Origin: Candidatus Saccharimonadota bacterium
Lineage (GTDB): Bacteria > Patescibacteriota > Saccharimonadia > Saccharimonadales > UBA4665
DNA: 64,000 nucleotides
Direction: 5' to 3'
Assembly: GCA_029288365.1 (NCBI GenBank)
Contig: JARIHI010000003.1
Coordinates: 1-64,000 of the forward strand
Positions 10,855 to 64,000 of the stretch are shown here, piece by piece; positions within the stretch are counted from its first letter, which is position 1, and each line of letters opens with the position of its first letter. Below the pieces are notes generated by a model. The model was not told where the DNA came from. It saw nothing but the letters and a program-made list of their open reading frames with translations, and did not search any database. Position numbers and translations under genes: made by a program.

Positions 10855-10884
10855 TTTACAAATGTTGTGAAAACCTGCTATAAT
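10855..10884 (+). promoter_or_regulatory. Strong promoter of infA with a very short leader
   Basis: TTTACA at 10855-10860, 18-base spacer, TATAAT at 10879-10884. The start site should fall near 10891, only about 10 bases before the infA ATG at 10902, with no Shine-Dalgarno in that leader. Confidence 0.75.
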
Positions 10885-10901
10885 CAATTCCTGTTATATT
10901 T

Positions 10902-11123
10902 ATGGCCGCGAGCAAAGAAGTAATTGAGCTAACAGGGACGATCATAGAGACGCTACCGGGTACTCAATTTCGAGTTGAGCTCGAGAATGGACATCAAATC
11001 ATAGCTCATGTGGCTGGGAAGATGCGGAAACATTATATCCGTATTGTACCCGGTGACTCGGTCACTGTAGAGTTGACACCTTACGATCTTAGTAAGGGTC
11101 GGATTACGTACCGAAAGTCGTGA
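10902..11123 (+). CDS. infA: Translation initiation factor IF-1
   Basis: A 73-residue OB-fold IF-1, full length, with the family sequence [20 protein letters not shown] and the KMRKHYIRI segment. It binds the 30S A site during initiation. Its own promoter predicts a near-leaderless mRNA, unlike the Shine-Dalgarno-led ribosomal genes around it. Confidence 0.97.
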
Positions 11124-11133
11124 ACATTTACAT

Positions 11134-11198
11134 AGTAGTATATCTCGCACAGAAATTCTGCGTCCCCGATGCTTGATTTCAATGCAAGTCGTACTACT
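11134..11198 (+). other. Candidate structured leader (three-way junction) upstream of rpmJ
   Basis: AGTAGTA (11134-11140) pairs with TACTACT (11192-11198), enclosing two hairpins: one around 11146-11162 (CAGA/TCTG core) and one at 11171-11189 (CTTG/CAAG). It lies in the 143-base gap between infA and rpmJ. The fold is read by eye. An autoregulatory leader for the rpmJ-rpsM-rpsK-rpsD-rpoA transcript is the obvious hypothesis. Confidence 0.4.
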
Positions 11199-11261
11199 CC
11201 GTAAAGGTCACAGGATTTATAAATATAAGCAGTGAGTCAATCTCATGAAAGGAGACTGATC

Positions 11262-11277
11262 CGTACATGAAAGTACG
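11262..11277 (+). promoter_or_regulatory. Hairpin presenting the rpmJ start codon in its loop
   Basis: CGTAC (11262-11266) pairs with GTACG (11273-11277), leaving a six-base loop ATGAAA that contains the rpmJ AUG. GGAG of the ribosome binding site (11251-11254) lies just upstream. Confidence 0.45.
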
Positions 11278-11383: not shown

Positions 11384-11393
11384 GGAGTAGTTA

Positions 11394-11780: not shown

Positions 11781-11796
11781 GGTACAGGAGAGGATA

Positions 11797-12186: not shown

Positions 12187-12195
12187 GGTAAAGAT

Positions 12196-12813: not shown

Positions 12814-12830
12814 GGGAGGCGGAAACTAGT

Positions 12831-13781: not shown

Positions 13782-13783
13782 AG

Positions 13784-15126: not shown

Positions 15127-15155
15127 TTGACAGGTGTTGACAGGAGGTGTATATT
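15127..15155 (+). promoter_or_regulatory. Promoter preceding a 26-aa ORF and an attenuator-like terminator
   Basis: TTGACA at 15127-15132, 17-base spacer, TATATT at 15150-15155. A second TTGACA lies at 15137-15142. The start should fall at about 15162, on or next to the ATG at 15163. Confidence 0.65.
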
Positions 15156-15162: not shown

Positions 15163-15243
15163 ATGTCAACACAACGAGCATACCGTACATACTTTTGGTT
15201 TACCGACCCCATTTGTGGTGGCTATTTGCGCATGCGTGTATAA
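15163..15243 (+). CDS. Possible leaderless 26-aa leader peptide
   Basis: ATG 15163 opens 26 codons ending TAA 15241-15243. The peptide has an aromatic cluster (TYFWF, codons 9-13) with one Trp codon at 15196. The predicted mRNA would start at or beside the AUG. Downstream, a terminator (15268-15294) can be replaced by an alternative pairing (15215-15230 with 15259-15276) that a ribosome finishing the ORF would cover. This resembles an amino-acid attenuator; trpS lies downstream. Confidence 0.4.
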   Translation: MSTQRAYRTYFWFTDPICGGYLRMRV

Positions 15244-15267: not shown

Positions 15268-15294
15268 AACCGTCACAAAAGTGGCGGTTTTTTT
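15268..15294 (+). terminator. Intrinsic terminator, possibly an attenuator
   Basis: AACCGTCAC (15268-15276) pairs with GTGGCGGTT (15281-15289) around an AAAA loop, followed by a T-run to 15294. It ends either a short RNA from the 15127 promoter or, under attenuation, controls entry into the 79-aa gene and trpS. Confidence 0.8.
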
Positions 15295-15565: not shown

Positions 15566-15571
15566 TATAAT
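15566..15571 (+). promoter_or_regulatory. -10 box of trpS, leaderless geometry
   Basis: TATAAT ends 7 bases before the trpS ATG at 15579, so transcription would begin at the start codon. No convincing -35 and no Shine-Dalgarno are visible. Confidence 0.5.
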
Positions 15572-15578: not shown

Positions 15579-16721
15579 ATGAATAAACCAGTAATATTGA
15601 CCGGTCTCCGGGCAAATGACGAATTTCACTTAGGAAACTATTTGGGCGGTATCTTACCTACAGTGCAGCTACAACAGCGACATGCTGGTGAGTATCAGGT
15701 AAACATGTTCGTGCCTGACCTACATAGCTTTACGACTCCAATCGAACACTACAAGCTCTACCAACAAACTCTGGATAATCTACGCGTGTTTGCAGCTGCA
15801 GGTTTAGACACGACTAATACAGATACATATATATATCGTCAAAGTTTTATTCCGGCACACAGTGAACTTGCTTGGATACTTGACTGTTTTACGTATTTCG
15901 GTGAGCTAAGGCGGATGACACAATTCAAAGACAAAGCAGGGGTAGTAGAACGTAATTTTATTGATAAATTGTCAGATTCGGCTACCCAGGATGAAGTTCT
16001 TAAAAAACTAGAACAAGTATCTGTTGAAATAGGTAAGATTACCCAGAATAAACAAGCGGAAGATAGTGTTACTGCAGGCTTGTTTAACTATCCCGTCCTA
16101 ATGGCCGCGGACATATTATTGTACGAGGCAAAATATGTGCCTGTAGGCGCAGACCAGAGACAGCACTTAGAATTGACGCGTGATTTAGCCATCCGTTTAA
16201 ATAATAAATTTCAACAAGAGTTATTTGTAGTACCTGAATCGTGGGATAAGCAACTAGAGTTTGCAGATCGTGAGGCAGGTGTACGGATACGAAGTCTGCG
16301 CAACCCGGCAAAGAAAATGAGTAAAAGTATTGCTGACCCGTCGGGTACAATTATGCTTAGTGATGCCCCTGAGGAAGCGTCCAAAAAAATCATGCGCGCT
16401 GAAACTGATAGTTTTGGAGAAATTCGTTTTGATTTCAAAGAACGCCCTGGTGTATCGAATCTTCTGCAGATAGAAGCTTTGCTGTCTGGGAGACCGCAGA
16501 CAGAAGTTAACGCTGAATGGGAGGGTAAAGAACGCTACGGTGACCTGAAAGAAGTTGTTGCTGCTACTGTAGAACGTTTCTTGGCTGAAATCCAAGCAAA
16601 ACTTTCAACAGTAAACGAAGAAACTATTCTGACTAAATTGACGCAAGACGAGCAAAAGATGAATGAAGCAGCAAATGCTACTCTTCTGAAGGTGCAAAGA
16701 GCTGTCGGCTTGCGAAAATGA
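15579..16721 (+). CDS. trpS: Tryptophanyl-tRNA synthetase
   Basis: A class I synthetase charging tRNA-Trp. The HIGH-type motif HLGN is at residues 17-20 and KMSKS near residue 246. Start at ATG 15579 (MNKPVILTGLRAND) fits homologues (xKPVxLTGxxP); the in-frame ATG at 15570 lies inside the -10 box. 380 aa, somewhat above the usual 330-350. Its stop overlaps the next gene as ATGA. tRNA-Trp itself is at 27565. Confidence 0.93.
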   Translation: MNKPVILTGLRANDEFHLGNYLGGILPTVQLQQRHAGEYQVNMFVPDLHSFTTPIEHYKLYQQTLDNLRVFAAAGLDTTNTDTYIYRQSFIPAHSELAWILDCFTYFGELRRMTQFKDKAGVVERNFIDKLSDSATQDEVLKKLEQVSVEIGKITQNKQAEDSVTAGLFNYPVLMAADILLYEAKYVPVGADQRQHLELTRDLAIRLNNKFQQELFVVPESWDKQLEFADREAGVRIRSLRNPAKKMSKSIADPSGTIMLSDAPEEASKKIMRAETDSFGEIRFDFKERPGVSNLLQIEALLSGRPQTEVNAEWEGKERYGDLKEVVAATVERFLAEIQAKLSTVNEETILTKLTQDEQKMNEAANATLLKVQRAVGLRK

Positions 16722-18451: not shown

Positions 18452-18457
18452 TATACT
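18452..18457 (+). promoter_or_regulatory. -10 box close to the TPR gene start
   Basis: TATACT ends 11 bases before ATG 18469, predicting a leader of about 4-5 bases without a Shine-Dalgarno. Confidence 0.4.
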
Positions 18458-20316: not shown

Positions 20317-20345
20317 TTGATAAACAGTGGTTAATCTGATAGAAT
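20317..20345 (+). promoter_or_regulatory. Promoter of rpmG, leaderless geometry
   Basis: TTGATA at 20317-20322, 17-base spacer, TAGAAT at 20340-20345. Predicted start near 20352, 3 bases before ATG 20355. Confidence 0.6.
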
Positions 20346-25842: not shown

Positions 25843-25921
25843 TGGCTGCTATTATAGCCGAGTTATATAAGAATCAAAAATACTCTTAAAAAGCATAGGC
25901 GTTATACCTTATCTGGTATGC

Positions 25922-27494: not shown

Positions 27495-27564
27495 ATTCAA
27501 AATTATAGAACAAAATACCTACAATAATTTTCAAATGATTTGTTAGTATAGCAATTCAGGATTA

Positions 27565-27695: not shown

Positions 27696-27747
27696 CAGAT
27701 GAAATTACTTTTCCAACCAAGTCAAATCTGTTATACAATATATACAT

Positions 27748-28418: not shown

Positions 28419-29129
28419 ATGCCCATAAAGATTGTTGATATCCCGGATGTGGGAAAAGTTTATCTACAAAAACGCCGAGGTAGTCGCAATATACGGCTAA
28501 AAATTGATGCCAATGCAAAAATATCTGTCTCATTACCATACTTTGTACCCTATGTCATGGCGACAGAATATGTGAAAAAAAACCAATCTTGGATTAAGGC
28601 CGAGCAAGCAAAGCGAACAGTATACCTGTTAGATGGCATGAATATTGGCCGTGTTCACACATTACGTTTTTTAGAAGATATGCGTGCTACCACACCCAAA
28701 ACAAGAGTAACAGCCAACGAGGTTATCGTCCGACACGCTATTATCCCCACCGACATGGTGGTACAATTGGCCGCAAAAAAGGCGTCAATCCGAGCACTAA
28801 AACTACAGGCAACCCATTTCTTACCAAAACGATTACGCGATATTGCAAAGAGTGAAGGCTATGAATACTCAAAAGTATCGGTAAAACAAATGAAAGGACG
28901 CTGGGGGAGTTGCAACCAAGACAAATCCATTGTGCTGAATATATTTCTTATGGAGTTGCCGGTTGAATTAATTGATTATGTCATCCTTCACGAATTAGCT
29001 CATACTCGTGCACTTAATCACGGTCCGGAATTTTGGCAAGAATTCGAAAAGCATTTGCCCAATGCCAGAAAGCTTCGCAAACAACTTCATGCATATCAAC
29101 CCACTATTCCTGCACAAACTGTGGCATAA
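28419..29129 (+). CDS. YgjP-like metal-dependent hydrolase (DUF45)
   Basis: 236 aa with the zincin motif HELAH (in ILHELAHTRALNHGPEFW, near residue 190), preceded by KGRWGSCNQDKSI, the standard DUF45/YgjP arrangement. Probably an intracellular metalloprotease; substrate unknown. Confidence 0.82.
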   Translation: MPIKIVDIPDVGKVYLQKRRGSRNIRLKIDANAKISVSLPYFVPYVMATEYVKKNQSWIKAEQAKRTVYLLDGMNIGRVHTLRFLEDMRATTPKTRVTANEVIVRHAIIPTDMVVQLAAKKASIRALKLQATHFLPKRLRDIAKSEGYEYSKVSVKQMKGRWGSCNQDKSIVLNIFLMELPVELIDYVILHELAHTRALNHGPEFWQEFEKHLPNARKLRKQLHAYQPTIPAQTVA

Positions 29130-29130
29130 T
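29125..29130 (+). promoter_or_regulatory. -10 box of the histidine kinase, leaderless geometry
   Basis: CATAAT ends exactly 7 bases before ATG 29138; it overlaps the previous stop codon. No Shine-Dalgarno. Confidence 0.45.
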
Positions 29131-31748: not shown

Positions 31749-31787
31749 TACCCTAAACTATACAGCTCCAAATAACTGAATGCTAGG

Positions 31788-38591: not shown

Positions 38592-39736
38592 GAGTCGCTA
38601 TTGTTGTACCGCATATTTTTATGCATCAGGATATTTTGCCAAAGGTTATATTTTCACCTGGCACTTTAGCAATTGAGCTTGCCGAAGGTCTTCAGGACTT
38701 AGGACTAGACGTCACGTTATTCACTCCAGGGCCAATTGATACTAAAGTTTCTAATAGTACGGCAGACCTGAGTAATTTTGATGCTGAACTACGAGGTAGG
38801 AGCGACACATATATAGATTTACTAAAAAAACATCCTCTGACTTTTATTACGCTTGCCCGGCAAGTCCAGGCTGAATTAATTACTGAGGCATACAAAAGAG
38901 CCAACGCCAACGAATTTGACCTTGTGCACATCTACACGAACGAAGAGGAGATTGCTCTGGTCACAGCAGATCTTTGTAAAAAACCAGTAGTATTTACTCA
39001 TCACGATCCATTTAACTTTTTGGTAAAATATAAAGCCATATTTCCTAAATACTTACACCGAAACTTCATATCTATCTCGAATTCCCAAAGAAGAGGTATG
39101 CCGAAAGACACAAATTGGCTAGCAACCATTTACCACGGCATGGACCCGCAGGCTTATAAACCTGTAGAAAATCCACGAACAGACTACGTAGCCTATCTTG
39201 GTCGTATTATCGAACCTAAAGGCGTACACCTAGCTATCCAAACCCTACAGCAACATAATCGAGTTCACCCAAATGATCCTCTTGTGTTAAAAATTGCTGG
39301 GAAGCACTATAGCGGCAAAAAAGACCAATACTGGCAAGAGCAGATTTTGCCGCAACTTGACGACAAATTCATCGAGTATGTTGGCTTTATTGAAAGCTCG
39401 AATGATAAGCAAACGTTTCTCGGCAATGCTCGAGCACTTATCATCCCTTCGTTATTTGAAGAACCGTTTGGCATGGTTATGATTGAAGCACTAGCTTGCG
39501 GCACACCGGTAATCGGCATCAATTCCGGCGCAATTTCAGAAGTAATCAGTCAACACAAAACTGGCATTGTAGTACCGAAAACAACCGAATCTCAAATGAT
39601 TACAGATCTCACAAGGGCGATAGAAGATATTAAAAATATTGACCACACTATATGCCGGCAAGAGTTCGAGAAACGCTTTACTTTACAGCGTATGTGCCAA
39701 GAGCATCTGCAGGCTTACCAAAAACTTATAGGATAA
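38588..39736 (+). CDS. Glycosyltransferase family 4
   Basis: 382 aa with an N-terminal Rossmann domain and the GT4 donor-site signature EEPFGMVMIEALACGTPVIG near residue 290. Last gene of the operon; it could use the sugar or alcohol nucleotide made by the preceding genes. It converges with thyA with an 11-base overlap. Confidence 0.82.
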   Translation: MRVAIVVPHIFMHQDILPKVIFSPGTLAIELAEGLQDLGLDVTLFTPGPIDTKVSNSTADLSNFDAELRGRSDTYIDLLKKHPLTFITLARQVQAELITEAYKRANANEFDLVHIYTNEEEIALVTADLCKKPVVFTHHDPFNFLVKYKAIFPKYLHRNFISISNSQRRGMPKDTNWLATIYHGMDPQAYKPVENPRTDYVAYLGRIIEPKGVHLAIQTLQQHNRVHPNDPLVLKIAGKHYSGKKDQYWQEQILPQLDDKFIEYVGFIESSNDKQTFLGNARALIIPSLFEEPFGMVMIEALACGTPVIGINSGAISEVISQHKTGIVVPKTTESQMITDLTRAIEDIKNIDHTICRQEFEKRFTLQRMCQEHLQAYQKLIG

Positions 39737-40538
39737 CGAGTGGGGCCTTGATGTGTGGATGTGGATCGTAATCTTTTAGCACAAAATTATCTTCGGTAAA
39801 ATTATCAATGTCTGCAGGCTTACCCACAATTTCTAGCTTTGGTAATTGTTTTGGCTTGCGTTTAAGTTGCTCCTTGGCTTGATCAAGATGGTTGTTATAC
39901 AGGTGTGCGTTACCAATAGATATAACTAACTCTCTGGCCTCCAAACCCGTCAAGGAAGCCACCATTTGTAAGAGCATAGCGTATTGTGCAATATTGAACG
40001 GTAATCCTAAAAATACGTCCGACGAACGTTGATAGAGTTGCATACGCAACTTACCTTTAGTTACGTCAAACTGAAACATGGTGTGACATGGCGGTAAGCG
40101 CATAGCTTCAAGGTCGGCCACATTCCAGGCATTGACAATAATAGCCTTAGAATGCGGATTGGTTTTTATTTGGTCTATAGTCCACTGTAGTTGATCAAAT
40201 TCTTGTCCATCTTGACCTTTCCAGTGCCGCCACTGTACGCCATATACTGGGCCAAGATTCAAGTCTTTATCGGCAAACTCGTCCCAATAGTGGATCTTGT
40301 GGTCTTGTAAATACTTAATGTTAGAGCTGCCCGAGACAAACCATAACAATTCATGTAACAAGAGAGAAAAGGGCATTTTCTTTGTCGTCAAAAGCGGAAA
40401 ACCATGTCGCAAATCAAAATGCATTTGATAGCCAAAAATAGATTTGATGCCATGTACACCGCGTGTTGGCTTGCTTTTGCCGTTCTTTAAAATCTCAGCC
40501 ATTAGTTTGAGATATTCGTACTCGGGATGGGCAGCCAT
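39726..40538 (-). CDS. thyA: Thymidylate synthase ThyA
   Basis: 270 aa. The catalytic cysteine is in PPCHTMFQFDV near residue 152, with RSSDVFLGLPFNIAQYA and the N-terminal RTxxGxxS-like region reading RGVHGIKSIFG. Converts dUMP to dTMP with methylene-tetrahydrofolate, producing dihydrofolate, which the divergent DHFR at 40742 would recycle. Confidence 0.95.
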   Translation of the reverse strand: MAAHPEYEYLKLMAEILKNGKSKPTRGVHGIKSIFGYQMHFDLRHGFPLLTTKKMPFSLLLHELLWFVSGSSNIKYLQDHKIHYWDEFADKDLNLGPVYGVQWRHWKGQDGQEFDQLQWTIDQIKTNPHSKAIIVNAWNVADLEAMRLPPCHTMFQFDVTKGKLRMQLYQRSSDVFLGLPFNIAQYAMLLQMVASLTGLEARELVISIGNAHLYNNHLDQAKEQLKRKPKQLPKLEIVGKPADIDNFTEDNFVLKDYDPHPHIKAPLVIL

Positions 40539-40547
40539 TATTTAACC

Positions 40548-40646
40548 CTACTTTTCTTCAGTTTCTTCTTCATCAAGAAAGCTCAGGTCAATTTCTTCAT
40601 CCTGAAGCTCATCATCACCATAATAACCATCAGCATCTTGTGTCAT
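40548..40646 (-). CDS. Very small acidic protein (32 aa) upstream of thyA
   Basis: Thirty-two codons with a strong GGAGG site 6 bases before ATG. About half the residues are Asp or Glu, with a GYYGDDE segment and IDLSFLDEEE. Transcribed with thyA from the promoter at 40685. No family recognised. Confidence 0.6.
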   Translation of the reverse strand: MTQDADGYYGDDELQDEEIDLSFLDEEETEEK

Positions 40647-40684
40647 GTTTCCCTCCAACAAAGCCTCATTTAATAACTCTTTTT

Positions 40685-40713
40685 AGTATAACGAAGCCCT
40701 ATATACTTGTAAA
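40685..40713 (-). promoter_or_regulatory. Promoter of the 32-aa gene and thyA
   Basis: On the minus strand TTTACA (40708-40713), 17-base spacer, TATACT (40685-40690). Divergent from the DHFR gene. Confidence 0.65.
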
Positions 40714-40728
40714 CTAACCCTGTTTTGT

Positions 40729-40734
40729 AATAAT
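40729..40734 (+). promoter_or_regulatory. -10 box of the DHFR gene, leaderless geometry
   Basis: AATAAT ends 7 bases before ATG 40742. TTGTAA at 40707-40712 is a possible -35 at 16 bases. Confidence 0.45.
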
Positions 40735-40741
40735 AAAGGCA

Positions 40742-41242
40742 ATGAAAGTGTTTATTATTGCCGCTCTTACTGCTGATGGGTTTATTGCCCGGCATAGCGC
40801 CCATACAGCAGACTGGTCAGTAAAAGAGGATAAACAACTATACGTGCGTTTGACGAAAGAAGCCGGAGTTATGATAATGGGGGCTCGTACTTTTGACACA
40901 ATTGGGCGTGCGCTGCCAGAACGTAAAACTATAGTTTACACTTCAAATCCCGACGCCTACACAGGCTTCGACATAGAGACCACAAAAGAAGCGCCTAAAG
41001 ACCTGCTCAAGCGCCTAGAAAAAGAAGGGTACACCTCAGTAGCTATATGCGGTGGTGCTCAAATATACACCCACTTTTTACAAGCTGGAGCTGTAACTGA
41101 CCTTCATCTTACATATGCGCCACTGCTTTTTGGAAAAGGTATACCGCTTTTTGCAGACAACTTTGACATACAACTTAAACTTGTATCAGTAGAAAAGCTA
41201 GGCGTCGATAGTCTATACGCACACTACACAGTGTTAGCATAA
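40742..41242 (+). CDS. folA: Dihydrofolate reductase family protein
   Basis: 166 aa. IIAALTADGFIAR at the N-terminus, MGARTFDTIG near residue 46 and AICGGAQIYTHFL near 103 are DHFR/RibD-C-like NADPH-binding signatures. Next to thyA, reduction of dihydrofolate is the likely role, although RibD-type reductases share the fold. Confidence 0.82.
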   Translation: MKVFIIAALTADGFIARHSAHTADWSVKEDKQLYVRLTKEAGVMIMGARTFDTIGRALPERKTIVYTSNPDAYTGFDIETTKEAPKDLLKRLEKEGYTSVAICGGAQIYTHFLQAGAVTDLHLTYAPLLFGKGIPLFADNFDIQLKLVSVEKLGVDSLYAHYTVLA

Positions 41243-41293
41243 GGTTGAATAATAGGTAACTTAAGCTTGCATTAGGTGAATCATTATGGCTTA

Positions 41294-43639
41294 ATGAATT
41301 CACAGATGAGCAATATGTTAAGGAAGAGTACGCCCAAGTCAAACGGTGTTTTTGTCGTCGTAGAGGGTACAGACGGCTCTGGTAAAGCTACGCAGTGTCA
41401 GCTACTAGCAGATCGTCTAAAGTCCGAAGGTTATGACGTGGAGGTTTTTGATTTTCCTCGCTATAGCCAACCCTCCAGTTATTTTGTACAGCAATACTTA
41501 AATAGCAAGTACGGGGATATTAATGAAGTAGGGCCGTACAGCGGTTCTCTTTTCTTTGCTCTTGACCGATACGACATCGCTAGAGATATACGGACAGCTT
41601 TAGAAAATAATAAAATTGTGGTAGCAAATCGTTTTACCGCATCAAGCATGGCTCACCAGGGAACTAAGTTTGCCCATGTTGAGGAGCGACGTGGCTTCTT
41701 TATATGGCTAGATAACTTGGAGTTTGAGCTACTTGGCATACCCCGCCCAGACGTAAACTTCGTACTTAATGTCCCTGCAACTATTGCTCAACAACTTGTT
41801 GATACAAAAGAGGCGAGGAAGTATACAAACAAAAAACGTGACTTGCATGAAGCAGATCTACAGCACCTTACAAAATCAGTAGAGATATATGATGATTTAT
41901 GCAAACTTTTCCCTCGTGATTTTCAGCAAATAGATTGCGTGCGTGATGGAAAAATTATGGACAGAAAAGATATCCATACCTTACTATGGGGCAAAGTAGC
42001 TCCTTTGTTGCCTAAGCCGCAGCCTAAACCGTCAAGTCTGAGTAAAAAAGTAGCTAATCCCTATGTGGCACAGACTGAAGTAGGACTTAAGGTCACAAAA
42101 CTTGGCGAAACTTTTCTCCAAGAGATAGTAACAAATACCGAAGATGATGTGTATGCATTGACTGCTACTCTTCCACCGGCAACAGCAGCGGCAGCTATGG
42201 CGCGGCTATGTCGGTGTGGCGATGACCTGCGTCTGACTATTTTGAATGAGTTTGCCCACGCGGAAAGCAAAGACAAAGAGCTACTACAGCGAGTTATTAC
42301 AGCTTATGGAGACGACTCCGTGCAACAGCTGGTCGGACAGTACATTGTGGTAGAAAACGCCAGCAACCTTCTTACTAAAAAATTAGAGTGGGGCAGGCTA
42401 GCCGCATATTTAGAACAGTCAACACGTTATATATACTTTGATAAAAAAGATTCGCAAGGTAAATATAAATACTATACGCCTGATAACTTTGACACAAAGA
42501 CACGCACTCTTTACGAAGAGGGAATGAATTCCATATTTGAACTTTACTCTGAAATGGTACATCGCTTAAACGACCATATTCAAAAACATTCCACTGTACC
42601 AGCCGAAACAAAAGATGCTGCATGGCGAAATGCTACCAGAGCTCAGGCCTGTGATGCTGTACGTCCTGTCTTGCCGGTAGCTACACAATCAACGGTGGGT
42701 ATCTTTGCCTCCGGCCAAGCCATAGAAAATTTGATCCTGCATTTGCTTAGTGACGAACTTATAGAAGCTCAAAGGACTGGAGAAAAAGTACTCAAAGAAG
42801 CTCGTAAAACAATGTCCGCCTTTTTGGAACGTGTTGATAAGCCTGAAAGAGGAGGAGCACACATTGCCTACCGCGCACGTACCCATAAAGCTGTAGAGGA
42901 CCTGGCCAAAGAATTATTACCTGAAAACCATACGATTACCCTAGAAGCGGTTCGCATGACAGATGTATGGCCGCGTAATGAACTAGATGTCGTAGCAGAT
43001 ATGTTGTATGAGCACAGTAACCTGTCATTAGAGGAAATCCGCGCTGAAGTAGAAAAAATGACCTATAAGCAAAAATTAAAAGTCGTCCAAACTTATATCG
43101 GAGAACGGTTGAATCGACGCCACAAACCCGGTAGAGCACTTGAAAAAATCCATTATAGTTTCGACTTGGTTTCTGATTACGGAATCTTTCGCGACCTGCA
43201 GCGACATCGCATGGTAGATGATCTGGAGTGGCAAAGGTTGACTCCTCGTTATGGCTACGAGGTGCCGCAATTGGTTGATAAAGCAGGACTTAGTGATCTA
43301 TTCGAACGATGCTTTGACATCAGTTTAGAACTATATAGCCATCTACAAGCGGCAGGCTATTCGCTTGAAGCACAATATACTACACTACTCGGTCATAAAA
43401 TGCGCTGGAAAGTAACGTATAACGCTCGAGAAGCGTTTCATATACATGAACTTCGCACTTCGCCGCAAGGACACCCTGGTTATCGTAAGCTAGTCCAACA
43501 GATGCATGAGACAGTCGCCCAAGCCCACCCCCTAATTGCAGAGAGTATGAAGTTTGTAAATAAAGGCGAAGATCCTGAACTCACTCGCCTAGCAGCCGAG
43601 AAATATGCTCAATTTAAGGTAGAGCAACGTAATACCTAG
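41294..43639 (+). CDS. dTMP kinase fused to two ThyX-like domains
   Basis: 781 aa. Residues about 15-235 are thymidylate kinase (P-loop EGTDGSGKATQ; DRYDIA; ANRFTASSMAHQG). The rest is two ThyX (flavin thymidylate synthase)-like units. ThyX normally has RHRxxSxNExSxRY. The first unit (near residue 366) reads WGRLAAYLEQSTRY, keeping ExSxRY but not RHR; the second (near 637) keeps RHR but then reads MVDDLEWQ. Start is uncertain: ATG 41294 has CATTAT 6 bases upstream; GTG 41276 is in frame. Confidence 0.82.
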   Translation: MNSQMSNMLRKSTPKSNGVFVVVEGTDGSGKATQCQLLADRLKSEGYDVEVFDFPRYSQPSSYFVQQYLNSKYGDINEVGPYSGSLFFALDRYDIARDIRTALENNKIVVANRFTASSMAHQGTKFAHVEERRGFFIWLDNLEFELLGIPRPDVNFVLNVPATIAQQLVDTKEARKYTNKKRDLHEADLQHLTKSVEIYDDLCKLFPRDFQQIDCVRDGKIMDRKDIHTLLWGKVAPLLPKPQPKPSSLSKKVANPYVAQTEVGLKVTKLGETFLQEIVTNTEDDVYALTATLPPATAAAAMARLCRCGDDLRLTILNEFAHAESKDKELLQRVITAYGDDSVQQLVGQYIVVENASNLLTKKLEWGRLAAYLEQSTRYIYFDKKDSQGKYKYYTPDNFDTKTRTLYEEGMNSIFELYSEMVHRLNDHIQKHSTVPAETKDAAWRNATRAQACDAVRPVLPVATQSTVGIFASGQAIENLILHLLSDELIEAQRTGEKVLKEARKTMSAFLERVDKPERGGAHIAYRARTHKAVEDLAKELLPENHTITLEAVRMTDVWPRNELDVVADMLYEHSNLSLEEIRAEVEKMTYKQKLKVVQTYIGERLNRRHKPGRALEKIHYSFDLVSDYGIFRDLQRHRMVDDLEWQRLTPRYGYEVPQLVDKAGLSDLFERCFDISLELYSHLQAAGYSLEAQYTTLLGHKMRWKVTYNAREAFHIHELRTSPQGHPGYRKLVQQMHETVAQAHPLIAESMKFVNKGEDPELTRLAAEKYAQFKVEQRNT

Positions 43640-43681: not shown

Positions 43682-43710
43682 TTGACCTAAAGAGGCTAAC
43701 CATATATAAT
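43682..43710 (+). promoter_or_regulatory. Promoter of rplJL
   Basis: TTGACC at 43682-43687, 17-base spacer, TATAAT at 43705-43710. Start near 43717; leader about 265 nt. Confidence 0.75.
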
Positions 43711-43716
43711 TAGCGA

Positions 43717-43982
43717 GTTACCAAAGACAGTGACTGTAAATAACTATCATATTTACTTAATTTGTCACCGAGGCTAGCAAGAAACATCGTTTTAGTTTTG
43801 AGCACAATCTCGTTATAAGTCTTTGGGCAACCAAAGACTTTTTTAGTTCTTTAAAAATCTAGGTCGAAGATTTTAGATAGATTTAAGGGAAAAGAGCAGC
43901 CCGAGAGAATGAATTTATTTCATTCCCCGGCGCGATGAGAAAAACCGCGAGGTTTGTCTCATTACCCTGAAAGGAATTTTAT
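43717..43982 (+). promoter_or_regulatory. L10-type leader with terminator/antiterminator choice
   Basis: From 5' to 3': CCAAAGAC (43721-43728); a long hairpin (43730-43768; GTGAC/GTCAC and GTAAATA/TATTTAC stems with an asymmetric bulge, the likely L10 site); and the attenuator. CCAAAGAC at 43721 equals part of the attenuator 3' arm and can pair with its 5' arm instead, forming an antiterminator that encloses the L10-like hairpin. Downstream are two more hairpins (about 43914-43931; AAACC/GGTTT with a GCGA loop inside ATGAGA/TCTCAT). Confidence 0.6.
43817..43844 (+). terminator. Attenuator terminator in the rplJ leader
   Basis: AAGTCTTTGG (43817-43826) pairs perfectly with CCAAAGACTT (43831-43840) around a GCAA tetraloop, then a T-run to 43844. 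It lies 140 bases before rplJ, so transcription of rplJL must pass it. Confidence 0.85.
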
Positions 43983-50745: not shown

Positions 50746-50751
50746 TATAAT
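50746..50751 (+). promoter_or_regulatory. Extended -10 box of the DHH gene, leaderless geometry
   Basis: TATAAT preceded by TGT, ending 6 bases before ATG 50758. No Shine-Dalgarno. Confidence 0.55.
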
Positions 50752-51789: not shown

Positions 51790-53188
51790 CACCCTGACAC
51801 GCAGCCTTGCAGAAGTCAAGCCACTCCAACCACCTCAAGTAACCGTGTACACCTGCGGGCCAACCGTATACGACTACCCCCATGTGGGAAATTGGTTTAC
51901 GTTTATCAGATACGACCTGCTTATACGCGTCCTTAGTCAAACAACCTATAAGCCCGTATGGGTTATGAATATTACTGACGTAGGGCACCTGGTCAGTGAT
52001 GCCGACGAAGGCGAAGATAAGCTCGAAAAAGGCGCTGAGCGTGAAGGCAAGACAGCTTGGGAAGTAGCAAAATACTATAGTGACTATTTTGTGCAAGGAC
52101 TTGAACGTCTAAATATCACTTCGCCAAAATATTTACCACTTGCCACTGAGCATATAGCTGAACAAATTGCATTAATTCAAAAACTAGAAGCCAAAGGATA
52201 TACCTACACTATCAATGACGGTGTGTATTATGACACAAAGAAATTCGAAAATTATGAGGCCTTTGCCCGGCTCGACTTAGACGACCAACAAACCAGTGTT
52301 CGGGTAGAGCACAATCCAGAGAAGCACAATCCATCAGACTTTGCACTCTGGAAATTCAGCCCTACAGACAAAAAGCGTGATATGGAATGGGATAGCCCCT
52401 GGGGCAAAGGCTTCCCCGGATGGCATATAGAATGCTCTGCCATGGCTATGAAACTTCTCGGTGAAACTATCGATATCCACTCTGGGGGCATTGATCATAT
52501 ACCAGTCCATCACACTAATGAAATTGCTCAAAGTGAAGCCGTAACCGGCAAACGGTTTGCGAACTACTGGATGCACACTAATCACATCACTATTAACGAC
52601 GAAAAAATCAGTAAAAGCCTCGGTAATACTATTACCCTGGAAGATATTGAGGCTCAAGGCTTTAGTCTGGAAGTGTTCCGGCTACACGTGCTAGAAAGTC
52701 ACTACCGCTCACAAAGCAAATTTAGCTGGGAGAGCTTACTGGCAGCTAAAAACCGCTTGGCAACCCTACAGGAGTTTGCAGATTTACGCTTCCAGGGCGA
52801 CCCCGACGCAATATTAGTCGGCGACGATTACTTTGAAAAACAACAAGCACTCATCCTACAAGCTTTATTTGACGACCTAAATACGCCTATAGCCTTACGT
52901 ATTATTAGCGAAACCATAACTTGGATTAATAAAAACGGATTGCACCCTACATATACAGAGCCTGGTGGCAGTTTCCATAACTTCGTTAGTTTTTTAGATG
53001 AAGTTTTCGGTCTACGACTAAGTGAAGGCTCCGATATTACTCCTGAGCAAAAACAGCGCATTACAGATCGTGATACAGCTCGTCATAAAGGCGATTGGGC
53101 AACAGCAGACGCTATCCGTGACGCCCTACATCAGGAGGGCATTGGCCTTAGGGATAGGCCGCTACAAGCTATTTGGTACCGGCTTTAA
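51776..53188 (+). CDS. cysS: Cysteinyl-tRNA synthetase
   Basis: 470 aa, starting at GTG 51776 (MKLYNTLTRS) with GCGGAG 7 bases upstream. TCGPTVYDYPHVGN contains the HIGH motif and first zinc Cys; WHIECSAM and the DIHSGGIDHIPVHHTNE segment hold the other zinc ligands; KISKSLGN is KMSKS. The catalytic zinc is retained here, unlike the structural sites lost in neighbours. Confidence 0.96.
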   Translation: MKLYNTLTRSLAEVKPLQPPQVTVYTCGPTVYDYPHVGNWFTFIRYDLLIRVLSQTTYKPVWVMNITDVGHLVSDADEGEDKLEKGAEREGKTAWEVAKYYSDYFVQGLERLNITSPKYLPLATEHIAEQIALIQKLEAKGYTYTINDGVYYDTKKFENYEAFARLDLDDQQTSVRVEHNPEKHNPSDFALWKFSPTDKKRDMEWDSPWGKGFPGWHIECSAMAMKLLGETIDIHSGGIDHIPVHHTNEIAQSEAVTGKRFANYWMHTNHITINDEKISKSLGNTITLEDIEAQGFSLEVFRLHVLESHYRSQSKFSWESLLAAKNRLATLQEFADLRFQGDPDAILVGDDYFEKQQALILQALFDDLNTPIALRIISETITWINKNGLHPTYTEPGGSFHNFVSFLDEVFGLRLSEGSDITPEQKQRITDRDTARHKGDWATADAIRDALHQEGIGLRDRPLQAIWYRL

Positions 53189-54287
53189 GAGCATTTGCTT
53201 CAGAGGTAGCTAATTTGCCACGATTTTGAAGATAGTCTATAGCCAGTACACGCAAGCAACCTGCCACAGGAATAGCTACGATACCCCCCAGAATGCCCGC
53301 CAAGTTAATGCCGATGATAACCGAGGCAAACACCAAAAGTGGAGACATATTTGTAGCGTTAGCCTGAATACGTGGTTGTATGACGTAATTTTCAATCTGT
53401 TGATATAAAATATAGAAAGCTAACACCAGAATAGCACTTATAGGTGACTCGGTTAAAGCAACGATTGTAACAATTGTTGCCCCAATATAATGTCCGATCA
53501 TCGGTACCAGGCCGCACAAAAATACAATTACAGCCAAAGCACCTGCATAGGGCACATGCAGCGTTAGCATAACCGGTAAAATAAACATTGCCGCCACAAG
53601 TGCAAGCGTTACCTGACCATTGACGTAACCTCTTACTACTCTGTACATATCGCCAACTAAATAATCCGTGCGCTCACGCTTATCAACAGGCAAAAATCTC
53701 CTGCCGTATGCAATCCAACGAGGCCCTTCTACAAGCATCATAAAGGTTAGTACCAATACTGTGAGCACTGATACTATGCCGTTGCCCACGGTGCTTACGG
53801 TAGCGACGGCAGTATTGCCAGAGTTCTTAACGATACTTGATAAGTCATTTGATAATTCTTCGGTTGCACCTTCAAGGTTGTTGTCGCGAATAAACTTGCC
53901 GATGGCGCTGTCTTGATCTTGCAAATCTTCTACAATCCCCGGTACTGCGGTCACAAAACTAGTTATTTGACGAGCGGCTGGCGGCACAATGATAGCGATA
54001 AATCCCGCAAGTATAAGCACTACTATAAGAAAAGAAATGCTAGTAGCTGCAGAACGGCTCCCTCGTAGTCTTCCGGGAATTTGCTTGGATATCCAATGTA
54101 CCGGCGCATTCAGCGCAACCGATAAAAAGAAAGCTATAAAAATCAAAATAAGCGCATGGCTTACCTTATTCAACGCCGCTAAGATAACGGTAGTAACTAC
54201 CACGGTGACAATAATTCGAACAACAGTCCGGCTCGAAATAACAATCTCCATCTTTTGCGGATGATCTGTCCCAGATTTTAGCTTCAT
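53169..54287 (-). CDS. AI-2E family (PerM-like) transporter
   Basis: 372 aa with about eight membrane helices and the C-terminal signature YQQIENYVIQPRIQ. The family includes Na+/H+ antiporters and putative autoinducer exporters; substrate unknown. The ATG complement at 54285-54287 is preferred: GATAAT (54294-54299, minus strand) ends 6 bases before it. Its end overlaps cysS by 20 bases. Confidence 0.88.
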   Translation of the reverse strand: MKLKSGTDHPQKMEIVISSRTVVRIIVTVVVTTVILAALNKVSHALILIFIAFFLSVALNAPVHWISKQIPGRLRGSRSAATSISFLIVVLILAGFIAIIVPPAARQITSFVTAVPGIVEDLQDQDSAIGKFIRDNNLEGATEELSNDLSSIVKNSGNTAVATVSTVGNGIVSVLTVLVLTFMMLVEGPRWIAYGRRFLPVDKRERTDYLVGDMYRVVRGYVNGQVTLALVAAMFILPVMLTLHVPYAGALAVIVFLCGLVPMIGHYIGATIVTIVALTESPISAILVLAFYILYQQIENYVIQPRIQANATNMSPLLVFASVIIGINLAGILGGIVAIPVAGCLRVLAIDYLQNRGKLATSEANALKAGTK

Positions 54288-54304
54288 ACTGACATTATCA
54301 CCTA

Positions 54305-57578: not shown

Positions 57579-57584
57579 TATACT
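57579..57584 (+). promoter_or_regulatory. -10 box of the VanY gene, leaderless geometry
   Basis: TATACT ends exactly 7 bases before ATG 57592; no Shine-Dalgarno. Confidence 0.5.
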
Positions 57585-57591: not shown

Positions 57592-58353
57592 ATGCGTAAG
57601 AAATACATCATTGGCAGTATTCTTGTCGCCCTAATGGTCGGTGCTGGCTATTTTATATTTTTTTTCAACTCCAAAGCTCCTGAAGCGCAAGTCTATCATC
57701 CGTCTACCAAACCTGCCGAGCAACAAAACACTCCAAATGTGAGTACTCCTAAGCCGAAAACTTTCAACAAAAAACTTTACTCACTCGATGACCCTGCCAG
57801 TATCTGGGTCGTAGCTAACAAAACTCGTCCTTTACAGCCAAAATCATACGCACCGAGCGACCTTGTAAGCGTTGGTAACGGTCAAAGAATGCGTGCTGAA
57901 GCCGCGACTGCTTTAAAACAGTTATTTGCAAGCGCAAAAACCGCAGGATATACTCTCAAATCACTCAGCGGCTATCGTTCTTACGGCACACAAGTCAGCG
58001 TATACAATAACGAAGTCAAGACATACGGACAAGCCGTCGCTGACAGCGAAAGCGCGCGTCCAGGGACAAGCGAGCACCAGACTGGCTTAGCTATCGACGT
58101 AGGTGGAGGAGGCTGTGGCATTGAAGATTGTTTCGGCAATACAGCAGCAGGGAAATGGCTGGCTAATAACGCGTATCAACATGGGTTTATTATTCGCTAC
58201 CCCCAAGGAAAAACGAGCATTACTGGTTATCGGTACGAACCATGGCACATTCGCTACATAGGCGCTGCTTTGGCTACCGAAATGCACAATACCAACGTAC
58301 AAACTCTAGAAGAATTCTTTAATTTGCCTGCTGCTCCATCGTATACTAACTAA
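57592..58353 (+). CDS. D-alanyl-D-alanine carboxypeptidase, VanY/M15B
   Basis: 253 aa. N-terminal membrane anchor (residues 5-26), Pro/Thr linker, then the M15B domain: SGYRSYGTQV, SEHQTGLAIDVGG (zinc His and Asp, near residues 162-174) and EPWHIRYIG (general base Glu and zinc His). It trims the terminal D-Ala of peptidoglycan peptides outside the membrane. Confidence 0.9.
   Translation: MRKKYIIGSILVALMVGAGYFIFFFNSKAPEAQVYHPSTKPAEQQNTPNVSTPKPKTFNKKLYSLDDPASIWVVANKTRPLQPKSYAPSDLVSVGNGQRMRAEAATALKQLFASAKTAGYTLKSLSGYRSYGTQVSVYNNEVKTYGQAVADSESARPGTSEHQTGLAIDVGGGGCGIEDCFGNTAAGKWLANNAYQHGFIIRYPQGKTSITGYRYEPWHIRYIGAALATEMHNTNVQTLEEFFNLPAAPSYTN
58342..58347 (+). promoter_or_regulatory. -10 box of the class A beta-lactamase-like gene
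   Basis: TATACT, formed by the last codons of vanY, ends 8 bases before ATG 58356; leaderless geometry. Confidence 0.4.
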
Positions 58354-60617: not shown

Positions 60618-60643
60618 GGCAAAGTCTTGCAAATGTTTGGTTT

Positions 60644-61750
60644 TTACTTTACGTAGCCGGTAATGGGTAGTGAGGTGATTCTTTTTTTGGGGCTATATGG
60701 AGTGTACAAGAGAGCGCCCCACACTACTGTTGCAGCCATAATAAATCCAGAAGCAAAAAACACACTGTTACTGTCGGATAAAAATAATACTGTACACAAT
60801 ACAGCCCAAGTAGCTAGGTAACCTAAATCACTGGCTATTTCTATAGACACGATGTAAGGCAAGCCCTTATCTTTTGCATGCGAATAATAAGTGGTGTTAA
60901 GCCCATTCAGAGCATAACCTTGAGCCGCATTGTAGCCTATGCCCAGTAACGCAATGGGGTTAAAGGTCGTAGCTACCAGTCGTCCCCAGTTGATAGTACT
61001 CATCCCGGTCACACCCTGGGCAAGAACTGTGCGGCTTTGCCCGCGGTCACCACGATGACCAGCTAGCCATATTGCCACAATCGTTCCGAATACCGAGAAA
61101 GCCGTAACTACCCCTATCTCACTAAAGCCACCTAGAGCAACAGCTAAATACACTGGCCACAGGTTGCGGCTGATAGTTTCTTCACTACAGAAACAGGCGT
61201 TTGCTATGACATCTCTGGTAGGAGCATTTTTTAAAGAGAAATGCAGTTTAACGGATTGGTCAATGGCAGGTATCTTTCGAATTTGTGTGAGGGGTTTTAT
61301 AGTAAAAACAAGACAAAACAAGGCAAACCCCAGCAGCCAATCAGCTCCAAATAAAGTGCCTACGAGTGCTCCAACAAGCGGACCAGAGAAGTCAGCAATT
61401 TGCCCAAAGATCTCCATAGTTGCCATACTGGAACTTTTGGTATCGTCTTTCATAATGGCCGGAACATACATATGGCGGGCATTAGAGCCAAACGAATCGA
61501 TGAGACCCAAAACAATAGCACCCATTACTAAAAAGAGTGTATTTTGAGTTTGAGCGTAACCTAGAATGTTCGCCAAATATAGAGCATAAAATACAAAACT
61601 CACAGCCAGACCTACATGTATCCCTCGTCGCTGTATAAAAATAATAGCTGGGACGTCCCCAATAAGTTTCACGAAGGCAAACAGTAAGTAAAACCCAGCG
61701 ATCATAAAGAGAGAACCGCCATTTTGCAGAATGACCAAAGGTATAAACAC
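60644..61750 (-). CDS. MFS-type transporter, start uncertain
   Basis: At least 368 aa with about ten membrane helices and an MFS-like pattern. GTG at 61750 is the first canonical start, but the frame stays open and protein-like for at least another 31 codons (LSWYRFSNGLVGV directly before it), with no ATG, GTG or TTG. An ATC at 61843 has TACTAT 6 bases upstream. The gene may use a non-canonical start or have lost its start. Confidence 0.75.
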   Translation of the reverse strand: MFIPLVILQNGGSLFMIAGFYLLFAFVKLIGDVPAIIFIQRRGIHVGLAVSFVFYALYLANILGYAQTQNTLFLVMGAIVLGLIDSFGSNARHMYVPAIMKDDTKSSSMATMEIFGQIADFSGPLVGALVGTLFGADWLLGFALFCLVFTIKPLTQIRKIPAIDQSVKLHFSLKNAPTRDVIANACFCSEETISRNLWPVYLAVALGGFSEIGVVTAFSVFGTIVAIWLAGHRGDRGQSRTVLAQGVTGMSTINWGRLVATTFNPIALLGIGYNAAQGYALNGLNTTYYSHAKDKGLPYIVSIEIASDLGYLATWAVLCTVLFLSDSNSVFFASGFIMAATVVWGALLYTPYSPKKRITSLPITGYVK

Positions 61751-61933
61751 TCCAACTAAACCATTACTAAACCGATACCAGCTTAGTGTTTCTGCGATGT
61801 GTTTGATTTCAGGTTGTATGGATAAAAACTTACTTAGTGTGATGCACGTATAGTACCATATGTAATTTGCTGGCTATTGACAATGGTCATTATCGAGTTC
61901 AAACTTAAGCGTAATAAGTAATCCGGTGAATTT

Positions 61934-63586
61934 ATGGAAAACGACACCTCTTCCGATGTATCATCATCTAGCCAAAATAGGGACCCTAATTCTACTGCTG
62001 TTACCATTCCACCCTCTTCTGTTTCTCCGAACAATACTCCACTACCTAATAATAAAAACGTACGCTCTAAAATAAAGCTTCTGCTCTTGCTGATAACAGT
62101 CGTAATAATGTGCGGTGTAGCTGCCGTCATTTACTTTGTACTGAAAAATAGTGGTCAAGCAGTAGAGGCCACTAAAAAAGATATACCTTCTATAAGTTAT
62201 GGGCTGCCTGATGGAGATCTAACCCAAATATACCCAGCAGGGGATACTGCTACAGCGTTTCAGGTGAACACACAATTGTTTGAAGGGTTAGTGCGCTACA
62301 ACAAACAGACCAGAGTTGTGCCTGCATTAGCTACCAGCTGGACTAATTCCGATACAAGCACCTGGACATTTAACTTGCGTCATGATGTTAAGTTTCATAG
62401 CGGCAGGCAATTTACGGCTCAAGATGTAAAACATAGTCTTGACTATGCCATTGCCCACAAGGATGACAATAGCTTAAGTAACCTTGCGTACGCTAGCACC
62501 ATTAAACAAGTTGAGGTTATCAGTCCTTACCAAATAAAGATCACGACAAATGGCCCTGACCCTATACTCCTTAATCGTTTAACTTTTCTTTTCATTATGG
62601 ATTCTAAAGCCAAACTAGGTGATGCAGAAGCAGGAACCGGTCCATATACAGTTAAGTCGGGCACAAAGCCCACCCCAGATACAATCAACCTAGTCGCTAC
62701 ATCTAATTATTACGGCGGTCATATTTATACTCGAGCCGTAAAAATAAAGGTAGTGCATAACGCTGATTCTCTGGTGCAAGGTGTCAACAATGGCACTTTT
62801 GACTTAGCAGGAAGTTTTGATACAAATAAACTGACTGAAATTACTCGCTCACATCAAACTATAGAGCGACAAAATCTTGGCGTTTCTTTCCTGGGGCTAA
62901 ATACAGTTCGCACCGACTCACCACTTTCTACCGTGGAAGGACGACAAGCAGTAGCGTACGCTCTAAATATCTCGGAAATCATTAAAAAAAGAAATGCCCA
63001 TGGCATACAGGCAAGTCAAATCATACCCCCAGCTCTACCAGGTCATGATCCTACTATTAAAAATACACCCTATGAACCAGAAAAAGCCAAGGCACTGCTA
63101 GCAAAGACTAAAAGCGCTTCAACTCCTCTTGTTTTTGGCTATTTAAGCGACGGGACAGATGCGGAGTATTTTGGACAAATTACAAAAGACCTTCAGTCAG
63201 CGGGCTTTAACATCAAAGCAGAACCAGCAACCGACTTGAACGACCTGGTAAATAAAAGCTTTGGGGGACAAATAGATATCTTCTCTCTGACTGATGATAG
63301 CGCCACGCTTGACGGGCTTACTTTCTTTACCGATTTACTACAAGGTAACGAAATCTACCATAACGAGCAAGTGGACAACCTTATAGCACAAGCAAGTAGT
63401 GCACTAAACCCTTCAGAGCGAGTAGCCATTTTGCAAAAAATTTCCCAGATTGCATCTAAAGAACTGCCTATTATACCGCTGTATACACCCACGGACTCAT
63501 TTGTATTAACAAAACCGTATCATATGCAAATAGATATACCGAGCGCCTGGGCAGGAATTTATTTTTGGCAAGTTTACCAAAGCTAA
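61934..63586 (+). CDS. Peptide-type ABC substrate-binding protein (SBP_bac_5)
   Basis: 550 aa. A cytoplasmic Ser/Asn/Pro-rich tail, one membrane helix (residues about 55-77), then the extracellular domain: FEGLVRYN, ATSWTNSDTSTWTFNLRHDVKFH and DVKHSLDYA are typical of DppA/OppA proteins. It has a membrane anchor and no lipoprotein Cys. No permease or ATPase gene lies in the window. Confidence 0.85.
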   Translation: MENDTSSDVSSSSQNRDPNSTAVTIPPSSVSPNNTPLPNNKNVRSKIKLLLLLITVVIMCGVAAVIYFVLKNSGQAVEATKKDIPSISYGLPDGDLTQIYPAGDTATAFQVNTQLFEGLVRYNKQTRVVPALATSWTNSDTSTWTFNLRHDVKFHSGRQFTAQDVKHSLDYAIAHKDDNSLSNLAYASTIKQVEVISPYQIKITTNGPDPILLNRLTFLFIMDSKAKLGDAEAGTGPYTVKSGTKPTPDTINLVATSNYYGGHIYTRAVKIKVVHNADSLVQGVNNGTFDLAGSFDTNKLTEITRSHQTIERQNLGVSFLGLNTVRTDSPLSTVEGRQAVAYALNISEIIKKRNAHGIQASQIIPPALPGHDPTIKNTPYEPEKAKALLAKTKSASTPLVFGYLSDGTDAEYFGQITKDLQSAGFNIKAEPATDLNDLVNKSFGGQIDIFSLTDDSATLDGLTFFTDLLQGNEIYHNEQVDNLIAQASSALNPSERVAILQKISQIASKELPIIPLYTPTDSFVLTKPYHMQIDIPSAWAGIYFWQVYQS

Positions 63587-63643
63587 TAGATATAAATATA
63601 AGTTTGTGGTATTTGTTTATTTGCAGAGTAATATTCGGTGATT

Positions 63644-63649
63644 TATCAT
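63644..63649 (+). promoter_or_regulatory. -10 box of the terminal nucleotidyltransferase gene
   Basis: TATCAT ends 6 bases before ATG 63656; leaderless geometry. Confidence 0.35.
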
Positions 63650-63655
63650 GCATAC

Positions 63656-64000
63656 ATGGTAGTAAACTACGATAGCCTAGCAGACATTCGCGCACGACAC
63701 CAAGACAAAAAAATTATATTAACTAGCGGTACGTTCGATTTATTTCATATTGGTCACTTGCGTTACTTGCAAGCAGCCAAATCTTACGGGGATATTCTAG
63801 TAATTATACTCAGTGGTGACGCTAGGGTTCGAGCCAGAAAAGGATTAGAGCGTCCGATTATTCCAGAAAACGAACGAGCAGAAATACTGGCTGCCTTAGA
63901 GATGGTAGATTATGTATTTATAGATCCTGCAAAATATAAAAAGGATCAAGTTGACCCAATTCATACAGATATAGTTAATGGCCTACAGCCCGATCTATAT
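63656..64000 (+). CDS. RfaE2-like nucleotidyltransferase, 3' truncated by the window
   Basis: 115 codons visible. GTFDLFHIGHLRYLQAAKSYGD holds the intact HxGH nucleotide-binding motif near residue 34, and RKGLERPIIPENERAE follows. It is a paralogue of the protein at 35047, which has HVGQ instead. Product would be a cytidylyl- or adenylyltransferase; the end is outside the window. Confidence 0.8.
   Translation, partial: MVVNYDSLADIRARHQDKKIILTSGTFDLFHIGHLRYLQAAKSYGDILVIILSGDARVRARKGLERPIIPENERAEILAALEMVDYVFIDPAKYKKDQVDPIHTDIVNGLQPDLY

Follow-up and report, generated by a model that had tools for sequence, protein, structure and literature searches.

Candidate leaderless genes with start-adjacent -10 hexamers in a Saccharibacteria genome, and predicted tryptophan and cysteine attenuators

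The locus and its hexamers

The window analysed here is the whole stretch of 64,000 nucleotides at positions 1-64000 of contig JARIHI010000003.1, part of a Candidatus Saccharimonadota genome of 908 kb in 8 contigs, and the elements in question are hexamers resembling the promoter -10 element that lie a few nucleotides before the start codons of many of its genes. An initial annotation, which proposed that these genes are leaderless, spoke of a Candidate Phyla Radiation (CPR) genome. This is borne out, the lineage being Saccharibacteria: the DHH protein has five named relatives, all from Candidatus Saccharibacteria metagenome-assembled genomes (MAGs), at 45-63% identity. Translation start has been little studied in the CPR, or Patescibacteria, which have reduced genomes and smaller ribosomes (PMC12641178). 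The hexamers are given below, the gap being the number of nucleotides between the end of the hexamer and the start codon.

10879-10884, plus strand: -10 TATAAT, 17 nucleotides before the infA start at 10902; a short-leader case, not a leaderless one
15150-15155, plus strand: -10 TATATT, 7 nucleotides before the ATG of a 26-residue open reading frame (ORF)
15566-15571, plus strand: -10 TATAAT, 7 nucleotides before the trpS start at 15579
15579-16721, plus strand: trpS (Pfam PF00579), leaderless candidate
18452-18457, plus strand: -10 TATACT, 11 nucleotides before the TPR gene start at 18469
20340-20345, plus strand: -10 TAGAAT, 9 nucleotides before the start at 20355 of the gene labelled rpmG in the initial annotation
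25851-25856, minus strand: -10 TATAAT, 8 nucleotides before the start at 25842 of the gene there labelled DUF1345
27502-27507, minus strand: -10 TATAAT, 7 nucleotides before the sanA-like (DUF218) start at 27494
27734-27739, plus strand: -10 TACAAT, 8 nucleotides before the AAA_33-domain gene start at 27748; a case that had not been listed before
29125-29130, plus strand: -10-like CATAAT, 7 nucleotides before the histidine kinase start at 29138, overlapping the end of the preceding gene
31757-31762, minus strand: -10 TATAGT, 8 nucleotides before the GT2 start at 31748
40729-40734, plus strand: -10-like AATAAT, 7 nucleotides before the DHFR start at 40742; weak, not TANNNT
50746-50751, plus strand: -10 TATAAT, 6 nucleotides before the DHH gene start at 50758
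54294-54299, minus strand: -10-like GATAAT, 6 nucleotides before the AI-2E start at 54287
57579-57584, plus strand: -10 TATACT, 7 nucleotides before the vanY start at 57592
58342-58347, plus strand: -10 TATACT, 8 nucleotides before the lactamase-like start at 58356, inside the end of vanY

All eleven hexamers that had been claimed at gaps of 6-8 are present, each at the gap given for it, and three of them (those of the histidine kinase, DHFR and AI-2E genes) do not match TANNNT. The longer gaps reported for rpmG, the TPR gene and infA are likewise correct, a gene described as PMT-like could not be identified with certainty in the window, and the gene labelled DUF1345 has no Pfam match. The start of trpS is likely to be 15579, the second in-frame ATG, because the first, at 15570, partly overlaps the -10 hexamer. 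Two other parts of the description need qualifying. The eleven starts were said to have no Shine-Dalgarno (SD) sequence, which is true of five of them, where no SD 4-mer occurs within 30 nucleotides, but the remaining six have one; those of the 26-residue ORF, trpS, sanA-like, AI-2E and GT2 genes sit 12-22 nucleotides off, in or upstream of the -10, and DHFR has AAGG 2 nucleotides before its ATG. The genes were also said to head transcripts, which is doubtful and overstated for five of the eleven, each lying close behind a same-strand ORF (lactamase-like 2 nucleotides, histidine kinase 8, DHH 16, AI-2E 17 and trpS 19).

Enrichment over chance

Genes were called with a simple purpose-written caller, and starts were assigned by a motif-blind rule, as the first ATG that reaches no more than 20 nucleotides into the preceding gene. 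Genes with no upstream neighbour in the stretch, with no usable ATG or with a start less than 80 nucleotides from an edge were dropped, which left 71 of the 72 genes called in the window and 282 of the 304 called in a held-out sample. The latter consists of 334 kb from other stretches of the same genome, chosen by coordinate; its first 234 kb had been inspected, with the peak already visible, before the last 100 kb was added. The search motif was TANNNT at gaps of 6-9.

Within the held-out sample, 73 of the 198 genes that head transcripts carry the motif 6-9 nucleotides before the first ATG, against 27.7 in shuffled sequence (p ~1e-15) and an expectation of 26.7 from control windows lying 14-65 nucleotides upstream. 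The excess is found at divergent heads (27 of 78; shuffles 11.8, control mean 12.0) and at genes behind a same-strand gap of more than 25 nucleotides (46 of 120; shuffles 15.9, control mean 14.7), and operon-internal genes give 14 of 84 (shuffles 7.1, p ~0.01; control mean 4.9). The shuffle comparison at 6-8 nucleotides suggested with the initial annotation thus came out as enrichment in held-out DNA, but the window alone, with motif-blind starts, yields 6 of 29 head genes where shuffles give 3.2 (p ~0.1). Judged by the excess over shuffles, roughly 23% of the heads sampled from this genome are of the leaderless type, a lower bound because starts and non-TANNNT hexamers are missed. The rate of adjacent -10 hexamers in this sample peaks at same-strand gaps of 25-60 nucleotides (24 of 45, from rounded rates).

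Promoter features of the hexamers

The promoter character of the hexamers was examined in a pooled set of 252 head genes with TANNNT at 6-9 nucleotides, drawn from this genome, from Saccharibacteria and from other Patescibacteria. De-duplication was applied only in this pooled analysis, four loci of named MAGs (L021-L024) being duplicates of other loci in sequence. A TTGACA-like -35 with at least four of six matches stands at a spacer of 17 in 42 of the 252, where spacers of 10-14 and 20-25 average about 11 each, and a TGn precedes the hexamer in 85 of 252 cases at gaps of 6-9 and in 18 of 256 for hexamers lying 14-21 nucleotides from the start, at which distance the -35 is weak as well. On these statistical marks, read from sequence, the hexamers at 6-9 are to be taken as promoter elements; neither the TTGACA at 17 nucleotides nor the TGn was used to pick them.

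The frequency of TGn is 6-8% at gaps of 14-21 and 11-18% at gaps of 22-29, which suggests two kinds of promoter, one start-adjacent and the other 22 or more nucleotides away, with few whose leaders would be too short for an SD sequence. An in-frame downstream start with an SD sequence within 58 nucleotides was found for 1 of 195 leaderless candidates and for 9 of 429 other head genes. A pyrimidine at position -1 (60 of 73 at gap 6) was considered as an initiator signature and dropped, as it is also seen at gap 9 (28 of 33) and in 60% of SD genes.

Conservation and breadth

Across 30 genomes of different genera, TANNNT occurs 5-9 nucleotides before the trpS start in 23, with 13 loci at exactly 7, and control windows of five nucleotides, from 17 nucleotides outward, contain it in 1-7 of the 30. 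Among more distant trpS loci across the phylum the figure is 13 of 25 usable (of 28, three being lost to unusable starts), with control windows reaching 9. When eleven groups of Saccharibacteria are pooled, giving 397 head genes, TANNAT is present 26, 22 and 16 times at gaps 6, 7 and 8, respectively, and about 5 times per position farther upstream in the same genes; a clear TANNNT excess is seen in 7 of the 11 groups. Ten other Patescibacteria genomes were also included; apart from the three considered below, they show an excess of at least about 1.7-fold, from small counts. The same pipeline found no excess in Escherichia coli K-12 (2 of 62 against 4.3 in control windows) but a clear one on plasmid MP1 of Deinococcus radiodurans (5 of 22 against 1.1).

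A count independent of gene calls was made over 39 whole Patescibacteria genomes, this one included, where the strict pattern TGNTATAAT-N6-8-ATG occurs 352 times and the same pattern with N14-16 occurs 127 times; the spacing control replaced a reversed-pattern control. In this genome the figures are 13 and 4, and the strict pattern is above its spacing control in 28 of the 39.

Counts below the spacing control were observed in genomes G047, G050, G059, G069 and G074, for which either a loss of the leaderless mode or low counts are possible.

Shine-Dalgarno genes

Held-out heads with an adjacent -10 seldom have an SD sequence (5-mer in 1 of 73, 4-mer in 6 of 73), and the 5-mer is found in 25 of 84 held-out internal genes. 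Within the window, an SD 4-mer precedes 31 of 42 internal genes compared with about 14% in control windows, in agreement with the earlier statement that operon-internal genes keep their SD sites. The 3' end of 16S rRNA was read in relatives, since the 16S gene of this genome ends at a contig edge; all 11 loci with a complete end (L026-L036) have the tail GGATTACCTCCTTTCT, with the CCTCC anti-SD core intact, and 3 of the 14 relatives' loci (L037-L039) lack the 3' end. The genome also encodes IF3, four S1-domain matches fall within one of its open frames, and an Rfam L10 leader lies at 43703-43854, ahead of rplJ. Leaderless and SD-led initiation very probably coexist in this genome, as had been suggested, because adjacent -10 hexamers mark held-out heads, SD sequences mark distal genes and the anti-SD is intact in relatives.

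A predicted tryptophan attenuator ahead of trpS

The 26-residue ORF upstream of trpS lies within the following set of elements.

15127-15132, plus strand: -35 TTGACA of the 26-residue ORF, 17 nucleotides before the -10 TATATT
15163-15243, plus strand: the ORF itself, MSTQRAYRTYFWFTDPICGGYLRMRV followed by a stop codon; a leaderless candidate with a single Trp codon, predicted to be a Trp leader peptide
15212-15221, plus strand: TTTGTGGTGG, a strand within the leader ORF predicted to act as antiterminator by pairing with the 5' arm and loop of the terminator (p=0.007, 300 shuffles)
15268-15294, plus strand: intrinsic-terminator-like sequence AACCGTCAC-AAAA-GTGGCGGTT and T-run

The layout is thus TTGACA-17-TATATT-7-ATG, and the terminator arm starts 26 nucleotides past the stop codon. 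The ORF has the appearance of a tryptophan-attenuator leader peptide, and relatives share it. A genome search with the peptide gave, beyond itself, only weak matches (best E 0.03), several of which lie upstream of trpS, have a WFT core in common and precede a terminator of similar kind. Of 30 Saccharibacteria trpS loci, 14 have a Trp-codon peptide with a terminator ahead of the gene, a count in which L042 stands in for L166 and some loci have short upstream DNA. The Rfam Trp_leader model scores 19 bits at the element of the window, the gathering score being 41.

A scan for a promoter, an adjacent ATG, a short ORF and a terminator, covering all DNA gathered for the analysis, returned 12 matches: nine Trp-codon peptides, two Cys-containing peptides and one unrelated. 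The twelve do not represent a genome-wide rate, because the scanned DNA is rich in trpS and DHH neighbourhoods. All nine Trp matches, including that of the window, precede trpS or fall in the gene neighbourhood usual for it, and eight have a WFT or WLT core. The gap is exactly 7 in 10 of the 12, and the same scan with other five-nucleotide gap windows returns 1-9 matches; when at least five matches are required in the -35, the adjacent gap window gives 7 and the others 0-2. Of the 13 Trp elements with enough upstream DNA, nine have an ATG with TANNNT at 7-8 nucleotides and two a GTG at 7-8, the gap is 10 at L042 and none was seen at L172. One gene separates the element from trpS in the window and in L240-L244 and L246, two genes do so in L042 and none was called in L245; at L239 (G009) the contig ends before trpS.

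Pairing of an antiterminator with the 5' arm of the terminator is supported at p<0.05 in 13 of 15 Trp elements (300 mononucleotide shuffles each), L164 and L165 falling short of that level. The pairing stretch lies 13-24 nucleotides after the Trp codon, the distance being 16 in 8 of these 13. In L160 the leader has GAGGCGG in place of the usual GTGGCGG and the arm has CCGTCTC in place of CCGCCAC, a covariation that retains the pairing. Leaders from 14 nucleotides after the codon were folded with ViennaRNA for 12 Trp and 3 Cys elements, L155, L162 and L168 not being folded. Without the 3' arm the antiterminator forms in 15 of 15 folds, and with it the best fold is the terminator in 7 and the antiterminator in 8.

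A predicted cysteine counterpart ahead of cysS

In three relatives a -10 is followed, 6-7 nucleotides on, by a Cys-codon peptide with a predicted terminator and antiterminator (L237 at 1436, L238 at 10467 on the minus strand and L024 at 11055). These elements lie between the DHH gene and cysS with one gene intervening, cysS having been named by eye in the three loci from sequence and position rather than by Pfam. Their -35 is weak, with 3-4 of 6 matches, and the antiterminator pairing reaches p<0.05 in all three. No Cys element was found in the window, where the DHH and cysS ORFs adjoin or overlap.

Explanation and rivals

It is highly likely that the hexamers are sigma-70-type -10 elements placed 6-8 nucleotides before the start codon, giving rise to leaderless mRNAs. 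RNA polymerase would start at the A of the start codon or 0-3 nucleotides before it, as the promoter position implies, and the resulting mRNAs would be bound, most likely by assembled 70S ribosomes, at their 5'-terminal AUG, with operon-distal genes and ribosomal-protein operons using SD sites and the intact anti-SD. The balance tips only slightly in favour of a wider proposal, that leaderless initiation is widespread and probably old in Patescibacteria, and that Saccharibacteria built on it ribosome-sensing attenuators for Trp (trpS) and Cys (cysS), with strong promoters whose transcripts would start at the AUG of a tiny leader peptide, the sensing ribosome loading at the extreme 5' end while the RNA is emerging.

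A number of observations weigh against a leaderless reading. The window alone is too small for significance with motif-blind starts, and the excess involves about 23% of heads, the others having an SD sequence or neither signal. The trpS window at 12-16 nucleotides also holds hexamers, in 15 of 30 loci and at gap 12 in 9 of these (for example TAAGGT, which overlaps TATAAT at the trpS of the window), and an SD 5-mer is present at 5 of 30 trpS starts. Conservation at the DHH gene is partial, with TANNNT at 5-9 in 13 of 26 usable loci (of 30, four being lost to unusable starts) and controls at 1-6. Little or no excess was seen in four Saccharibacteria groups, namely G023, the pooled G005, G007 and G012, the named set and G024 (4 head genes), or in G051, G061 and G095 among the other Patescibacteria; the strict pattern is not in excess in 11 of the 39 whole genomes, six having equal and five fewer counts. 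The -35 scan is also raised, without explanation, at spacers 10 and 11 (21 and 25 of 252), and cases at gaps of 9-11 could carry leaders of a few nucleotides.

This last point leads to the strongest of the rivals, namely that the mRNAs have short leaders of 4-12 nucleotides and are read by an SD-independent 30S route. The gaps of rpmG and the TPR gene are of this kind, and among head genes of this genome with long upstream DNA a strong -10 stands at gap 10-14 in 17 cases, compared with 27 at 5-9. However, the pooled relatives peak at 6-8, where transcription would be expected to begin on the A of the AUG or at most 2 nucleotides ahead of it, and the rival is considered unlikely. Much less probable again is that the mRNA has a normal leader and that the AT-rich hexamer acts in translation, as a ribosome site of the A/U-rich or S1 type. 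The hexamer does occupy the place expected of an SD sequence, the S1-domain frame of this genome would suit such a site, and A/U-rich non-SD signals have been discussed for other phyla (PMC5397173, PMC9581028), but the peak at 6-8 is sharp, and the TTGACA at 17 nucleotides and the TGn that accompany it belong to promoters and are not known to act in translation. The least probable explanation of all is that AT-rich upstream DNA matches the motif by chance and that free choice of the start codon makes the matches stand out. Such matches would accommodate the motif-blind count in the window and the three of eleven hexamers that do not fit TANNNT, but are refuted for the class by the tests on held-out DNA, relatives and trpS orthologues, all of which exceed shuffles or position controls; single genes, such as DHFR and AI-2E, may be chance matches. 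Should roughly one in four transcript heads prove leaderless, gene starts in these bacteria would have to be annotated differently, expression tools would change too, and very short intergenic gaps could contain a complete promoter.

Other features of the window

An MFS-like ORF at 60644-61750 was considered as the AI-2E gene and ruled out, since Pfam places AI-2E at 53169-54287. This ORF, on the minus strand with its first ATG at 61705, has no ATG near its likely N-terminus, and at 61855-61841 (minus) a -10-like TACTAT is followed, after a gap of exactly 6 nucleotides, by an ATC in frame at 61843, which may be a leaderless start without AUG. The region 39726-43639 encodes a ThyA-type thymidylate synthase and, nearby, one ORF in which thymidylate kinase and ThyX (Thy1) domains are fused.

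Comparison with known systems

Leaderless genes are established in bacteria (PMC3160421, PMC12340547, PMC9581028, PMC5397173, PMC9031893), and leaderless transcription has been predicted for 21.6% of bacterial species (PMC9581028). The TANNNT-led genes described by Zheng 2011 (PMC3160421) are similar to those found here in that the hexamer lies about 12 bp from the start as measured from its first T, which corresponds to gap 6, and in that SD sequences are expected in operon-distal genes. That study covered 953 bacterial genomes of 2010 and its main text contains neither 'TM7' nor 'candidate', whereas Saccharibacteria and other Patescibacteria are considered here. In Deinococcus-Thermus (PMC12340547), similarly, an average of about 30% of ORFs have a -10 some 6-7 bp ahead of them, and the effect of a -35 at 17 bp was tested; there the arrangement has been examined experimentally. 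The bacterial survey in the same paper did not take in symbiotic species or species of unclear classification, and neither 'patescibacteria' nor 'candidate' occurs in its main text. Unusual initiation in the CPR is partly known, since SD-scarce examples without a conserved CCUCC are listed for Absconditabacteria, Campbellbacteria, Peregrinibacteria and Wolfebacteria (PMC10783764). Among the titles and abstract openings examined, no report of leaderless genes in Saccharibacteria or Patescibacteria was found, although subscription papers, such as the GeneMarkS-2 paper, may hold one.

The predicted attenuators also have known counterparts. The leaderless polycysteine ORF attenuators of mycobacteria (Canestrari 2020, as described in PMC9031893 and cited in PMC13236596) likewise have, in front of an operon, a leaderless short ORF with codons for the amino acid that is sensed; those predicted here differ in concerning Trp (trpS) and Cys (cysS) and in having an intrinsic-terminator-like hairpin with an alternative pairing. 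Actinobacteria have trp and trpS attenuators with a Trp-codon leader peptide, an antiterminator and a terminator, one being predicted at trpS2 of S. avermitilis (PMC1262725). In contrast to these, the elements described here have a single Trp codon in place of two or three, a putatively leaderless promoter and a peptide with a WFT core, and belong to another phylum. The mechanism would be of a known kind, in a lineage for which no report was found, with an unexpected use in predicted attenuators of aminoacyl-tRNA synthetase genes.

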